Source: an uncultured Pelagibacteraceae bacterium
Lineage (GTDB): Bacteria > Pseudomonadota > Alphaproteobacteria > Pelagibacterales > Pelagibacteraceae
Length of the DNA: 64,000 bases
Reading direction: 5' to 3'
Assembly: GCA_902536305.1 (NCBI GenBank)
Contig: CACAWX010000002.1
Location: 1-64,000 of the forward strand
The notes under the pieces are model-generated. The model saw nothing but the letters and a program-made list of their open reading frames with translations, did not search any database and was not told the DNA's origin. Positions within the stretch are counted from its first letter, which is position 1; each line of letters opens with the position of its first letter. The translations under genes were made by a program, and so were the position numbers. This document shows positions 1 to 57,785 of the stretch, in pieces.

Positions 1-548
1 TGCTCCCAATTTTTCAATAATTTAGGTAAATCTTTTTTGTTATGATAACTTCCTTCCCCAATTTGCTCGGAGGAATTAAATGTTTGATTGATAATATTAT
101 CAATATTAATTAAAAATAAATTTTCTATTTCATTGATAAGTACTTTATAAGTTTTAGAAAATGTAAGAGTTTGTTTTTTTTTGGATAATTCAAAATTAAT
201 TTGTTTTTGATAAATTATTTTTCCTGTATCAATACCACAATCCACTTGATGAATTGTTATACCAGAAGGTGTGTTTTCAGCAAAAGACCAAAAATTAGGA
301 TGAGCACCTTTGTTATAGGGCAAAAAACTAATATGTAAATTAATTATCGGATATTTAAGATTATCAATAATATCTTTATCTATTATATGGCGATAACCAA
401 AACTAATAATAGAATTAAATTTTTTTGCTGTATTTAAATTAATTTTTTTTTGCGTTTGTTTTACACTCCATTTTTTTTTATGGAATTGAATTTTGTCAAT
501 AAGAGATGTTTGTTCATTATTATATCCTAGAAAGAGAATCTTTTTCAT
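1..548 (-). CDS. Formyltransferase-family protein (methionyl-tRNA/sugar-nucleotide formyltransferase fold), 3' end beyond window
   Basis: My translation of the minus strand from ATG at 548: MKKILFLGYNNEQTSLIDKIQF...YPIINLHISFLPYNKGAHPNFWSFAENTPSGITIHQVDCGIDTGKIIYQK. It has the NLHxSxLPxxxGxxPxxW and GxTIHxxDxGxDTGxII motifs. Not in the ORF track because it runs off the edge. Confidence 0.85.
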   Translation of the reverse strand, partial: MKKILFLGYNNEQTSLIDKIQFHKKKWSVKQTQKKINLNTAKKFNSIISFGYRHIIDKDIIDNLKYPIINLHISFLPYNKGAHPNFWSFAENTPSGITIHQVDCGIDTGKIIYQKQINFELSKKKQTLTFSKTYKVLINEIENLFLINIDNIINQTFNSSEQIGEGSYHNKKDLPKLLKNWE

Positions 549-567
549 ATAGAAATATTTACAAATA

Positions 568-592
568 GGGGCGTTCTGTTGCCAGGTGCATC
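568..592 (-). repeat. Copy 1 of tmRNA-3'-end-derived repeat (+ strand: GGGGCGTTCTGTTGCCAGGTGCATC)
   Basis: Matches the tmRNA 3' end over ~22 bp. Weaker, mostly transition-differing similarity continues further into the tmRNA (TGTTACAAAGTCAGATGCACC vs GGTAACGGGGTCCGGGGCACC in tmRNA sense). Confidence 0.88.
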
Positions 593-660
593 TGACTTTG
601 TAACATTATTCTTTATTATAAACCATTTGCAATTGTATAAAATCTTAAACTTTTAGAGAA

Positions 661-681
661 ATTACGTGTGGATTACGTGTG
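661..681 (+). repeat. Tandem 11-mer pair ATTACGTGTGG-ATTACGTGTG, left flank of the DUF3764-like ORF
   Basis: Seen directly; a near-identical direct copy lies at 1070-1088. Confidence 0.7.
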
Positions 682-741
682 AAATTTTATGCTAAAATCG
701 TGGGACAAAAAAAATTTTTAAATATAAATAAGGAGGTTTAT

Positions 742-1056
742 ATGGGAATACTAGTCAAAGGTGAAATTACAATCACAAAAGGATTTAAAACCTGGAAAGA
801 GATGGTTTATGCTCAGGACGAAAAATTAAAAGAACATGGAATAAAGTTTATTTTTGCAGGCACACAAAAAGATGATCCATCAAAACTACATACAGTAATG
901 CAATTTCCAAATATGGAAGCACTCCAATCTTTTAGGGATGATAAGCAACTTACTGAGAAAAGAAGGGAAGCCGGAGCTGTAATAGAAACTGCTGTAATGA
1001 CACCAATTTCAGATGAGCATCTTACTAACTATCCAGATGCATATTCTAAACACTAA
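742..1056 (+). CDS. DUF3764-like small protein (antibiotic-monooxygenase-like / dimeric alpha-beta barrel size class)
   Basis: ORF MGILVKGEITITKGFKTWKEMVYAQDEKLKEHGIKFIFAGTQKDDPSKLHTVMQFPN; AGGAGG Shine-Dalgarno just upstream of ATG 742. The track start at 679 is an over-extension. Confidence 0.65.
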   Translation: MGILVKGEITITKGFKTWKEMVYAQDEKLKEHGIKFIFAGTQKDDPSKLHTVMQFPNMEALQSFRDDKQLTEKRREAGAVIETAVMTPISDEHLTNYPDAYSKH

Positions 1057-1069
1057 TGGTTTATAAAAA

Positions 1070-1088
1070 ATTACGTGTAGATTACATG
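1070..1088 (+). repeat. Right-flank direct copy ATTACGTGTAGATTACATG
   Basis: 17/19 identical to 661-679, same orientation. Confidence 0.7.
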
Positions 1089-1147
1089 CAACAAGGTAAC
1101 ATAATTCTAATCGGTATTATTAATCAAAGATAATTATAAATTTGAAA

Positions 1148-1168
1148 GGGTCGTTCTGTTGCCAAGGG
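1148..1168 (-). repeat. Copy 2 of tmRNA-3'-end-derived repeat (+ strand: GGGTCGTTCTGTTGCCAAGGG)
   Basis: Shares the invariant GTTCTGTTGCCA core with the tmRNA 3' end. Confidence 0.85.
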
Positions 1169-1175
1169 ATTTATA

Positions 1176-1487
1176 TTAACAACCTTTTTTCTCTTTAATT
1201 CTATTTAAATGCAAAGCTCTCTCTTTAGCAGCAATTACTGCTTCCTCAACATTTTTCATTGTTATACCTGCACCAGGAAGAAAAAATAATATTGCCCCAA
1301 CATTATGTGGAGAACTCATTTTTTTTGCCTCTTGTGCTTCAAGTGCATACTTATTAGCTATTTCAATTTCTTTACTTAATTCTTCACAAGTTAGCTTGTT
1401 ATCATTCGGGCCTATAATATTTACTACTGTTGGAGTTGCGCAAGCTGTAAGGATAAATATAAATAATGTTATAATTGTTTTTTTCAT
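1176..1487 (-). CDS. Small lipoprotein
   Basis: MKKTIITLFIFILTACATP: signal peptide with lipobox LTAC. Only 7-8 bp separates each ORF end from the flanking repeat. Confidence 0.75.
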   Translation of the reverse strand: MKKTIITLFIFILTACATPTVVNIIGPNDNKLTCEELSKEIEIANKYALEAQEAKKMSSPHNVGAILFFLPGAGITMKNVEEAVIAAKERALHLNRIKEKKGC

Positions 1488-1495
1488 ATTTCAAA

Positions 1496-1519
1496 GGGGC
1501 GTTCTGTTGCCAGGCGCTC
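1496..1519 (-). repeat. Copy 3 of tmRNA-3'-end-derived repeat (+ strand: GGGGCGTTCTGTTGCCAGGCGCTC)
   Basis: Near-identical to the tmRNA 3' end. Confidence 0.88.
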
Positions 1520-1533
1520 AAACCTAGTTTATT

Positions 1534-2304
1534 TCATAAGTTAAATTTTGATTTGTTTAGAAAGAGTATGTCAGCAAAAAAAATTGATCCACCAAAAAGA
1601 GAATTATTGTGCAGTTCAATCCCGCTAAAACGATAGTTATATGGTAATAAATATTTTTCTATATCACTAAAATTTACATATTTTTCATAGACGTTGCTAA
1701 AGACAATCTCTATTTCTATTGCATCAATTTTTTGATTTTTAATCATATTTTCACAACCCATAAGCACTTTTTGTTCATACAATTGAGTATCTATTTTCAT
1801 AATATTGATATTATTTATAGAGTTTGTATTACAATAAGAGTCTACGGTATCTACATTAACCTCAATTTTTTTTGTGATATAGTTTTCTTTATCAATACCT
1901 AATTGTTCACTTCTTAGACTCAACCAGTCTGAGTCTTTTTTTATTTCAAAAAAAGAGGAATTTCCTGAATGACCTGCAATATTTAAAGTTTTTTTTTGTT
2001 TTTTATCCCCAACTGCAAGGTTAACTAAACTAATATTATCATAATTATTGTACTTTTTTTTTAAATAATTGAATTCTTCAGGTAATGGCTCAAAAGAATG
2101 AATTAAAGAGTTTTGATAAATTTTTAAAAACCTATCTATTGATTGACCCTTATTTGCCCCAATATCAAAAATTATAGGTTTATCATTTTTAATTATTTTT
2201 CGGTATATTTTATCAAAAGTTAAATAATTTATTTCCCTCTCATTTGGTTTTCTTCTTATTTCAAATCCAACCATATTAAAAATATTTTTTATCAGTTTTT
2301 TCAT
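1534..2304 (-). CDS. FkbM family methyltransferase
   Basis: IIFDIGANKGQSIDRFLKIY...IHSFEPLPEEFNYLKKKY...NIMKIDTQLYEQKVLMGCENMI: SAM-binding motif and FkbM-type layout. Confidence 0.85.
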   Translation of the reverse strand: MKKLIKNIFNMVGFEIRRKPNEREINYLTFDKIYRKIIKNDKPIIFDIGANKGQSIDRFLKIYQNSLIHSFEPLPEEFNYLKKKYNNYDNISLVNLAVGDKKQKKTLNIAGHSGNSSFFEIKKDSDWLSLRSEQLGIDKENYITKKIEVNVDTVDSYCNTNSINNINIMKIDTQLYEQKVLMGCENMIKNQKIDAIEIEIVFSNVYEKYVNFSDIEKYLLPYNYRFSGIELHNNSLFGGSIFFADILFLNKSKFNL

Positions 2305-2313
2305 AGATAATTA

Positions 2314-2343
2314 TTAAGGGTGTTCTGTTGCCAGGTCCCTTAA
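2314..2343 (-). repeat. Copy 4 of tmRNA-3'-end-derived repeat with a replaced stem (+ strand: TTAAGGG-TGTTCTGTTGCCAGGT-CCCTTAA)
   Basis: 15-nt GTTCTGTTGCCAGGT identical to the tmRNA copy; flanking 7-bp perfect inverted repeat. Confidence 0.88.
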
Positions 2344-2362
2344 ATATTAGTTAATATATTGA

Positions 2363-2722
2363 ATGTACGAATTATTTGCAAATCTTACTTTAATTATACA
2401 TTTAACTTTTATTTTATTTGTTATTTTTGGAGGATTACTTTTTTTTATTTTTTCAAAAATTATCTATATTCACTTCCCAGCATTATTATGGGGAATTTAT
2501 ATAGAACTAACTAATTCTGTTTGTCCATTAACTTATCTCGAAAATTGGTTTTTGTATAAAGGAGAATTAACAACCTATTCTAATGATTTTATTAACAACT
2601 ATCTTTTTCCAATAATTTATCCTGAGAGCTTAACTAATGAAATTCAAATATATCTTGGTATATCACTGATAGTTATAAATATTTTAATTTACGGATTAAT
2701 TTATAAAAGTTTTAAGAGATAA
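2363..2722 (+). CDS. DUF2784 family membrane protein
   Basis: MYELFANLTLIIHLTFILFVIFGGLL...NSVCPLTYLENWF: characteristic CPLTxLE motif and TM pattern. Confidence 0.8.
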   Translation: MYELFANLTLIIHLTFILFVIFGGLLFFIFSKIIYIHFPALLWGIYIELTNSVCPLTYLENWFLYKGELTTYSNDFINNYLFPIIYPESLTNEIQIYLGISLIVINILIYGLIYKSFKR

Positions 2723-2725
2723 TAA

Positions 2726-2750
2726 GGGGCGTTCTGTTGCCAGGTGCCCC
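2726..2750 (-). repeat. Copy 5 = native tmRNA 3' end (presumed ancestral site)
   Basis: GGGGCGTTCTGTTGCCAGGTGCCCC with perfect GGGGC/GCCCC stem, inside the tmRNA gene. Confidence 0.92.
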
Positions 2751-2984
2751 GGACCCCGTTACCTAATTAACAATGTTAATTAAGCTGCAAGTGCGTAACT
2801 TTCGTTAGCATTTGTAAATTAGCCCGTTACGTCGGAACCATCTCGTACGAAAGAATAGCCTTTAGACATCCGTCGATCCTAATTCACCCCCATAAGTTGT
2901 AAATGGTGGAGGTGGTGGGTACTGCCCCCACGTCCGTAATGTTTATTACGAAATTCGTTTATCGTCATAGTTGGAAAACCAACC
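2726..2984 (-). ncRNA. ssrA: Permuted two-piece alphaproteobacterial tmRNA (acceptor piece ~2904-2984; spacer 2892-2903; coding piece ~2726-2891)
   Basis: Minus strand: acceptor 3' end GGACGTGGGGGCAGTACCCACCACCTCCACCA, then loop ATAAGTTGTAAA (as read on +), then 5' end GGGGGTGAATTAGGATCGACGG. GGGGGTG pairs with CACCTCC over 7 bp (one G.U). Tag frame GCT AAC GAA AGT TAC GCA CTT GCA GCT TAA = ANESYALAA*. Coding piece ends GGGGCACCTGGCAACAGAACGCCCC. Confidence 0.94.
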
Positions 2985-3031
2985 CTATTAATATAAAACT
3001 CTTTAGCAGAGATTCAATAAATTATTTCAAA

Positions 3032-3979
3032 ATGAAACTTACAACAGAACAAAAGCAAGAAATTGCAGATCAACAAGCCCAAAAACACGAAACTAAAAGA
3101 GTTACCTCTCTTGAATTAGAAAAGATACTTTATGATGCTTTACCCGTTTTAGATCATGGTTTTGTAAGAGTTGTAGACTATATGGGAGACGATAGTTCCA
3201 TTGTTCAATCTGCAAGAGTTTCTTATGGAAAAGGAACAAAAAAAGTTTCTACTGATGAGGGATTAATTAAATATTTGATGAGACACTGGCATTCTACACC
3301 ATTTGAAATGTGTGAAATAAAATACCACGTCAAACTTCCAATCTTTATTGCTCGACAATGGATCAGACATAGAACTGCAAACGTAAATGAATATTCAGCT
3401 AGATATTCAATTTTAGATAAAGAATTTTATATTCCAGCAAAAGATCAATTATCAGCTCAATCAACTTCAAATAGACAAGGAAGAGGAGATTTAATTACTG
3501 GAGAGCAAGCTGATGAAGTTTTAAAAATTTTAAAAGATGATGCAACTAGAACCTATGATAATTACGAGAAAATGCTAAATGAAAGATTTGATGGCTCAAC
3601 AATTGATGAAGGCAAATCAGGTCTCGCAAGAGAATTAGCTAGAATGAATTTAACTTTAAATTCATACACACAGTGGTATTGGAAAACAGATTTATTAAAT
3701 CTACTTAACTTTTTATTTTTAAGAGCAGACAGTCATGCTCAATACGAGATAAGAGTTTATGCAGAAACTATGTTAGATACAGTTAAAAAATGGGTGCCAA
3801 TAACCCATTCAGCATTTTTAGATTATAGAGTGGGAGCAGTTCATGTTTCAGCTAAAGGTAAAAAAGTTATCCAACAAATGGCCAAAGGTGAAAAAGTAAG
3901 TCATGAAAGTTCAGGTCTTTCAAAAAGAGAATGGAATGAACTAATGACTTCTTTTGATTTTATTGAAAAGATTGTTTGA
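3032..3979 (+). CDS. thyX: Flavin-dependent thymidylate synthase
   Basis: [15 protein letters not shown] ThyX motif. Real start likely ATG 3032; the track start 2903 lies inside the tmRNA. Confidence 0.96.
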
Positions 3980-26336: not shown

Positions 26337-26391
26337 ATTTTCTCCTAATTTGGAGAAGTATGAACGAAATTATATTCAGTTCATCTTCTCC
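26331..26391 (-). promoter_or_regulatory. Mutually exclusive hairpins between SAM-V and metY
   Basis: Minus strand: A=GGAGAAGATGAAC (26391-26379), B=GTTCATACTTCTCC (26365-26352), C=GGAGAAAATATGAAC (26345-26331). B can pair with A (1-nt bulge) or with C (small internal mismatch). Confidence 0.55.
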
Positions 26392-26445
26392 TTTTTAGTA
26401 CTTCGGCAAAATGCCAGGTGTACAATACGGTTCAAATACCTGGTT
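26385..26445 (-). promoter_or_regulatory. SAM-V riboswitch
   Basis: Minus strand: AACCAGGTATTTGAACCGTATTGTACACCTGGCATTTTGCCGAAGTACTAAAAAGGAGAAG; P1 CCAGGT/ACCTGG, CUAAAAAGGAG 3' element. Confidence 0.85.
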
Positions 26446-26462
26446 TAATTTTAGATTGTTCC

Positions 26463-57595: not shown

Positions 57596-57637
57596 TTATG
57601 TTTGACTTTTAAAGTCTTTTGAAAGAAAGTTCGCAAT

Positions 57638-57785
57638 GTAACGGGAGAGACCAATTATTTGGCGCCGAAGGAGCAACCACCCCGGAAACTCTCAGGCAAA
57701 AGGACCGTTACCGTAATAACTCTGGAAAGCAGGCTTAGGCCTCACCGAAGGATTAAATCTCTCAGGTACAAAGACAGATGGGGTT
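57638..57785 (+). promoter_or_regulatory. Tandem glycine riboswitch
   Basis: CGGGAGAGACC...GCGCCGAAGGAGCAA...CTCTCAGGCAAAAGGACCG, then second aptamer CTCTGGAAAGC...CACCGAAGGATTAAATCTCTCAGGTACAAAGACAGATGGGG. Confidence 0.95.

Follow-up and report, generated by a model that had tools for sequence, protein, structure and literature searches.

An array of tmRNA-end repeats beside ssrA

SAR11 bacteria are the sea's most abundant heterotrophs and have very small genomes. We analysed the first 64,000 nucleotides (hereafter, the window) of a 183-kb contig (CACAWX010000002.1) from a draft SAR11-type genome of an uncultured Pelagibacteraceae bacterium (GCA_902536305.1), which opens with an array of one-gene cassettes bounded by copies of the end of ssrA, the gene for transfer-messenger RNA (tmRNA). 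The ssrA gene is of the permuted (two-piece) alphaproteobacterial kind and lies at 2722..3021 on the minus strand (RF01849, 218 bits; ARAGORN agrees and gives the tag ANESYALAA), as expected from an earlier note, which had placed the end of a permuted tmRNA gene at 2726. On the plus strand, the 3' end of the gene has the sequence GGGGCGTTCTGTTGCCAGGTGCCCC, which recurs in the same orientation at 568, 1148, 1496 and 2317.

The outermost copy of this core in the window (GGGGCGTTCTGTTGCCAGGTGCA) lies at 568..590, followed by copies at 1148..1170, 1496..1518 and 2317..2339, and by the one at the 3' end of the ssrA coding piece (2726..2748), the attB side, where the gene end is intact. All five are on the plus strand within 2.2 kb. 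The 12-mer GTTCTGTTGCCA occurs on the plus strand at 573, 1153, 1501, 2322 and 2731, with no sixth copy in the window at up to one mismatch; shuffled sequence would be expected to give 0.32 matches at one mismatch. The same five copies were the only ones across the 878-kb draft genome, which extends the observation of the earlier note that the rest of the window has none. The single orientation of the tmRNA-end repeats that it described also stands. It had put the fourth copy at about 2314; this core starts at 2317, so that the spacings are 580, 348, 821 and 409 bp, the first two as given there and the last two replacing 818 and 412 bp.

Each interval of the array holds one main open reading frame (ORF), as had been noticed, and Pfam confirmed the families proposed for all but one. 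Cassette 1 (568..1147, plus strand), which bears an attP-like scaffold of family B, carries a DUF3764 gene (739..1056, plus strand; PF12594, 1.3e-7). Cassettes 2 (1148..1495) and 3 (1496..2316), both on the minus strand and without a recognised scaffold, carry a small lipoprotein-like ORF that matched no Pfam family (1176..1487, minus strand) and an FkbM methyltransferase gene (1534..2304, minus strand; PF05050, 1.8e-20). Cassette 4 (2317..2725, plus strand; 409 bp) carries a DUF2784 gene (2363..2722, plus strand; PF10861, 2.6e-31). Beyond the outermost visible core lies a formyltransferase gene (3..548, minus strand; PF00551, 8.9e-17) that is incomplete at the contig start. The contig starts where the window does, so the array is truncated on its left side and the formyltransferase could lie within yet another cassette. 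On the other side of the array, the thyX ORF (2903..3979, plus strand; PF02511 and synteny) is what usually flanks the hotspot on the right; the gene probably starts only downstream of its overlap with ssrA.

Distribution of the arrays in the genus and family

The survey covered 169 genomes of the genus, and 80 regions from them were read in detail together with the window. The core 11-mer was present in 135 of the 169 genomes, usually as several copies clustered within a few kb on one strand, and a reversed-pattern control gave counts near zero. In the regions read in detail, 275 core copies were forward and none was reverse. The consensus core spans positions 0-22 (GGGGCGTTCTGTTGCCAGGTGCC, 23 bp), with random sequence to its left and a partly shared stretch to its right, and the copies belonging to ssrA are kept in full; every array had the repeats. 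The variable DNA is bounded by a conserved gene pair (g0, g1) on one side and ssrA on the other, usually with thyX next, and one locus (L139) has a cassette-free, empty site between g1 and ssrA. Other genera of the family also have arrays beside ssrA, with up to eight exact copies of the core. The ppdK gene was considered as an array flank and rejected; it neighbours ssrA in a sister genus and is not the flank in the window's genus.

Two patterns had been named as evidence against an insertion array, the same genes in a fixed order among related strains and a repeat that is simply a genome-wide motif. Neither was found: the gene content of the arrays varies, and the repeat does not occur genome-wide.

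A 272-bp cassette with core copies on both sides was also found upstream of a tRNA-Leu gene, away from ssrA, at five loci (L094, L096, L103, L109 and L132), and it is 98-99% identical to cassettes in the ssrA arrays of L091, L102 and L112. The tRNA-Leu location looks like a secondary attachment site.

Cassettes move between species and probably enter at the ssrA end

A total of 24 cassette groups recurred in at least two arrays, mostly at other positions and with other neighbours. Against a median thyX identity of 84%, several were far more similar than their flanks: C10 (99% vs 81-85%), C18 (100% vs 72-78%), C1 (99-100% among ssrA arrays vs 73-84%), C5 (94% vs 77-81%) and C2 (94-95% vs 72-84%). 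Cassettes of the window recur too. Cassette 1 has a 91% identical counterpart in L110, where thyX is 85% identical, cassette 2 is 96% identical to a cassette of L040 that has different neighbours there, and cassette 4 is present in 11 arrays at varied positions with differing neighbours. The homology between cassette copies starts and ends inside the core, with a mean identity of 0.8-0.98 within and about 0.3-0.5 outside (0.37-0.47 on the left), mirrored at the other end. Gene content thus changes at the repeat boundaries, where the earlier note had proposed to look for it.

Core mismatches rose with rank from ssrA (Spearman 0.38, p 8e-8, very decayed copies being uncounted), as the entry of new cassettes at the ssrA end would produce. 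The same small cassette was found intact, its ends identical, across several species and settings, indicating that the small form itself moves.

Cassette make-up and cargo

The 194 intervals had a median length of 782 bp. Among the 148 shorter than 1.5 kb, 105 had a single ORF of at least 50 aa, and the longest ORF spanned a median of 78% of the DNA; intervals of 5-8 kb were also present. The cassette proteins fell into 172 clusters, 117 of them singletons. Sampled cargo included superoxide dismutase, rhodanese, hydrolases, a GMC oxidoreductase and restriction endonucleases, and the larger units carried type I and type III restriction-modification systems. In the half of the cassettes with a recognised scaffold (93 of 188), the main gene pointed toward ssrA in 88; the 95 scaffold-less cassettes were shorter and mixed in gene direction (34 vs 51).

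A near-identical signal peptide (MKKLLAIVVLGLL-like) starts 54 cassette ORFs from 29 clusters (L035-L144) and only 3 of 761 ORFs outside arrays. Different mature proteins thus appear to follow one export signal, as though cargo were swapped behind a fixed module of attP, leader and signal.

Ten scaffold-less cassettes (e.g., at L039 10124, L112 15008 and L126 14155) have extra tmRNA-like sequence to the right of the core, matching at 9 or more of 12 nt, which suggests another origin or way of moving for them.

Arm words flank the core as in an integrase attachment site

Many cassettes fall into a few common scaffolds, of which A and B are the commonest. Within a scaffold, short words of 7-9 bp vary between cassettes, but a cassette tends to have matching words at its two ends. 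The words are 11 bp apart. Relative to the core, one side has them at about +84/+95/+107 and the other at about -65/-54 or -78/-67. Those of family A include TGAGTCC, TGTGATC and GTGCCC, and those of family B ATTACGAG, TTCGGCA and CTCCGCC. In cassette 1, the right arm words (ATTACGTGTgg, ATTACGTGT; 661..680, plus strand) are 11 bp apart at +93 and +104 from the core, and the left arm words (ATTACGTGTag, ATTACATG; 1070..1088, plus strand), also 11 bp apart, lie 78 and 67 bp before the next core. ATTACGTGT occurs there at 661, 672 and once more at 1070, and ATTACATG at 1081.

The two ends of a cassette were compared with swapped ends. In family B, the mean longest shared word was 8.3 for own ends vs 5.3 for swapped ends (0 of 5000 permutations), in family A 7.1 vs 6.3 (4 of 5000), and the remaining cassettes also gave 0 of 5000. 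A tyrosine-integrase attP spans about 250 bp and has arms to the left and right of its core; the words found here occupy stretches from about +84 to +107 and from about -54 to -80. Judged by its sequence, the word-pair layout of about half of the cassettes is that of a putative attP of this type. Sequences of scaffolds A and B were absent from viral contigs.

A divergent tyrosine integrase beside ssrA in relatives

The earlier note had called for an integrase search, and a dedicated tyrosine integrase was located beside ssrA in relatives. At L053, a 7.6-kb element sits directly beside ssrA with the core and GGTACATAGT words at both ends, and the gene for a 409-aa integrase ends beside its distal core; the element also has a PF00239 resolvase that is not near its ends. 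Including this kind of gene and its remnants within 10 kb of ssrA, eight genomes of the order have the integrase (G034, G493, G338, G330, G217, G421, G445 and also G407), with G421, G445 and G407 having remnants. For the homologues in G285 and G423 the contig ends near the gene, and those in G529 and G537 have no ssrA nearby. The G529 homologue (L225) is close to a tRNA-Gly gene, and the family may therefore include tRNA-targeting members.

Comparison with Pfam, PDB sequences and PHROGs left the L053 integrase unnamed. A homologue at L193 had a subthreshold match to PF13102/PF00589, which together with the fold named the integrase, and the homologues in the order conserve the R...K...R...Y residues. 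In the AlphaFold model, a strand-plus-helix domain at the N terminus precedes helical and catalytic parts, and Foldseek matched the model to Cre, Xer and Tn1549 Int (E 4e-6 to 1e-4). Judging from this model, the protein is a divergent tyrosine recombinase with a predicted Cre/Xer-like fold.

At the element ends, sequence specific to each element follows GGGGCGTTCTGTT, so that the block they have in common is reduced to 12-13 bp. Alignment of the G338 right arm with integrase-less cassettes of the window's genus gave scores of 110, 78 and 73 vs a null maximum of 30, and two more element-cassette arm pairs stood out. Only the rare elements (L053, G493, G338 and G217) have an integrase inside; the cassettes, including those of the window, have none.

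A 5-kb type III restriction-modification unit behaves as a single large cassette in both L092 and L122, with 77% identity and at differing array positions, and an arm of the L122 unit resembles an arm of the L053 integrase element.

The other non-Xer integrases of the genus (L164-L174) were discarded as candidates, having no core copy nearby. The integrase itself was not found in viral contigs or GenBank phages. A phage origin of the core was likewise rejected. The 18-mer was found in 18 viral contigs, but the sequence beyond it there reads like the terminus of a permuted tmRNA gene carried by a phage, with neither an integrase nor a second core copy nearby, so these sites are not attP. Phage-borne permuted tmRNA genes have already been published (PMC9004378). 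The phage contigs (L145-L162) appear to encode their own permuted tmRNA with a 3' end identical to the SAR11 core, and phage genes of this kind might offer attachment sites that act as decoys or carriers.

A probable stack of integrase-less cassettes and alternatives to it

The array is very probably a stack of integrase-less integrative cassettes inserted at the ssrA end, and the cassettes were most likely mobilised in trans. Each cassette would start as a circle with usually one gene and an attP whose core matches the final 12-13 bp of ssrA exactly, about half of these putative attPs also having arm-type words in pairs to the left and right of the core. A tyrosine integrase from the rare elements with the same core and arms would recombine the circle into the ssrA end, where the left half of the core would restore the tmRNA 3' end and the old end would be displaced outward as the next repeat. 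Later insertions would stack next to ssrA and push older cassettes outward. We infer that the integrase acts on the cassettes in trans, that the circles exist and that there is a route between cells.

The earlier note had proposed much of this, namely serial insertion of small circular cassettes by a recombinase from outside the window. Serial insertion is strongly supported by the genus-wide arrays, the swapping between species at repeat boundaries, the polarity toward ssrA and the tyrosine integrase beside ssrA in relatives.

Several observations weigh against this interpretation. The integrase was found in only 1 of the 169 genus genomes and not in the window's own genome (73% complete), and no integrase bearing scaffold A or B arms was found. 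Its structural model is of middling confidence (predicted local distance difference test score, pLDDT, 74; predicted template modelling score, pTM, 0.47). The word match in family A only modestly exceeds chance. Scaffold-less cassettes are among the recent movers (C1 and C2, at 94-100%), so the arms are perhaps dispensable or another route exists.

Alternatively, larger ssrA islands could have been inserted serially and then have decayed, through loss of the integrase gene and others, to short att-flanked remnants, as in cis-mobilizable elements (CIMEs). Tandem accretion and CIMEs are documented (PMC5704250), integrase remnants lie beside ssrA in three genomes, and intervals of 5-8 kb exist. 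The recurrence of the same intact small cassette, its ends identical, across several species and settings and the large share of the short intervals taken up by the longest ORF speak against such decay, and we regard it as unlikely. Homologous recombination between the repeats and flanking genes, with the repeats retained for a role as spacers or as terminators of the ssrA type and without a site-specific recombinase active at present, would fit the frequent recombination in SAR11 and the hairpin into which the tmRNA copy of the core folds. However, a 23-bp repeat is short for homologous exchange, the boundaries lie inside the core, and the hairpin is not fully kept in about half of the internal copies. 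The matched arm words and the adjacent integrase would go unexplained, and the 272-bp cassette is found beside the tRNA-Leu gene as well, with core copies of its own. We regard this explanation as quite improbable.

The one-gene units, the polarity of the array and the nearly uniform direction of scaffold-bearing cargo (88 vs 5) would also suit a true integron-type system, with an IntI-like integrase acting on folded single-stranded sites and ssrA as the attI-like end. No IntI-type gene was found near any array, however, and most PF00589 matches of the genus come from a single Xer-like gene in each genome that is not near the array. All five stem pairs are kept in 87 of 189 internal core copies vs 74 of 76 ssrA copies, and the words spaced by 11 bp point to attP; a true integron is thus very hard to reconcile with the arrays. 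Modules driven by XerCD, like the dif modules of Acinetobacter, would need no local integrase, as most genomes have a Xer-like gene. This is equally remote, given the single orientation of all core copies, an ssrA-derived core with arm words that Xer would not need and a dedicated adjacent integrase that would be left unexplained.

Taking the stack of trans-mobilised cassettes as the preferred interpretation, we offer a wider proposal more tentatively and give it somewhat less than an even chance. The Pelagibacterales may have a gene-capture system in which a pool of one-gene cassettes carries only attP, and each of the arm-word specificities is served by its own ssrA-specific integrase acting in trans from rare helpers. 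Its cargo would be expressed one way and often exported via a common signal peptide, and the system would be an integron analogue with its evolutionary origin in phage-type integration at a permuted tmRNA gene.

Comparison with known systems

Tyrosine-integrase elements that target tRNA or tmRNA genes likewise leave a direct repeat of the target gene end and restore the target. A cyanobacterial integrase was reportedly described by Williams in 2003 as using the non-tRNA-like 3' end of permuted ssrA; that case involved an ordinary element and no cassette array. The use of this end, which the earlier note had regarded as unusual, is therefore not wholly new.

That note had also called the system integron-like, which holds for appearance and behaviour and not for membership. 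Like an integron, the SAR11 array has one-gene cassettes, the newest at a fixed end, and a shared cargo pool. Unlike an integron, it has no IntI, attC hairpin or attI, and its core is a gene end with attP-type arms; membership fails on integrase type and attC. No tyrosine recombinase gene was detected at the arrays by PF00589, the integrase found being of another, divergent type, and the internal core copies of the window fold weakly. An earlier search did not find attC sites at SAR11 hypervariable regions (PMC2217521).

Tandem ssrA islands are known from Dehalococcoides (PMC3146451). These are larger (vcr islands, ~12 kb), insert in the T-loop region of ssrA, use a serine recombinase (DsiB) and in many cases carry integration modules, whereas the SAR11 units mostly have one gene and no integrase, are associated with a tyrosine integrase and lie at the non-tRNA-like end of a permuted gene. 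In "Ca. Methylopumilus", an additive flexible genomic island (fGI-2) with recurring tRNA-Lys end repeats has been described, without one-gene units, attP arms, a dedicated recombinase or between-species transfer (PMC10872708). CIMEs and the tandem accretion of integrative and conjugative or mobilizable elements (PMC5704250) resemble the array in being att-flanked, integrase-less and stacked site-specifically at one target. However, CIMEs are decayed conjugative or mobilizable elements, whereas many SAR11 units are intact one-gene cassettes with conserved attP scaffolds that recur across species. The dif/pdif modules of Acinetobacter plasmids (e.g., PMC13141974) are also small and use a tyrosine recombinase in trans, but have Xer sites in alternating orientation instead of an ssrA-derived core in one orientation with arms. 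A published description of this SAR11 array was not found in the literature searched, which is not proof of absence. Tandem ssrA islands have precedents; arrays that are compact, one-gene and trans-mobilised and have matched arm sites appear to be new.

An array found family-wide at one fixed integration point offers a concrete route by which SAR11 may gain and swap accessory genes, including restriction systems, hydrolases, superoxide dismutase and secreted proteins. It also suggests that an ordinary tRNA/tmRNA-type integration system can become an integron-like array when its cargo units retain only attP. The mechanism is directly testable, as the site and an integrase candidate are known and cassette gain and loss should be visible in single-cell genomes and long reads.

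Elsewhere in the window, SAM-V and glycine riboswitches were found at 26385-26450 and 57632-57717, respectively, as is usual for SAR11.

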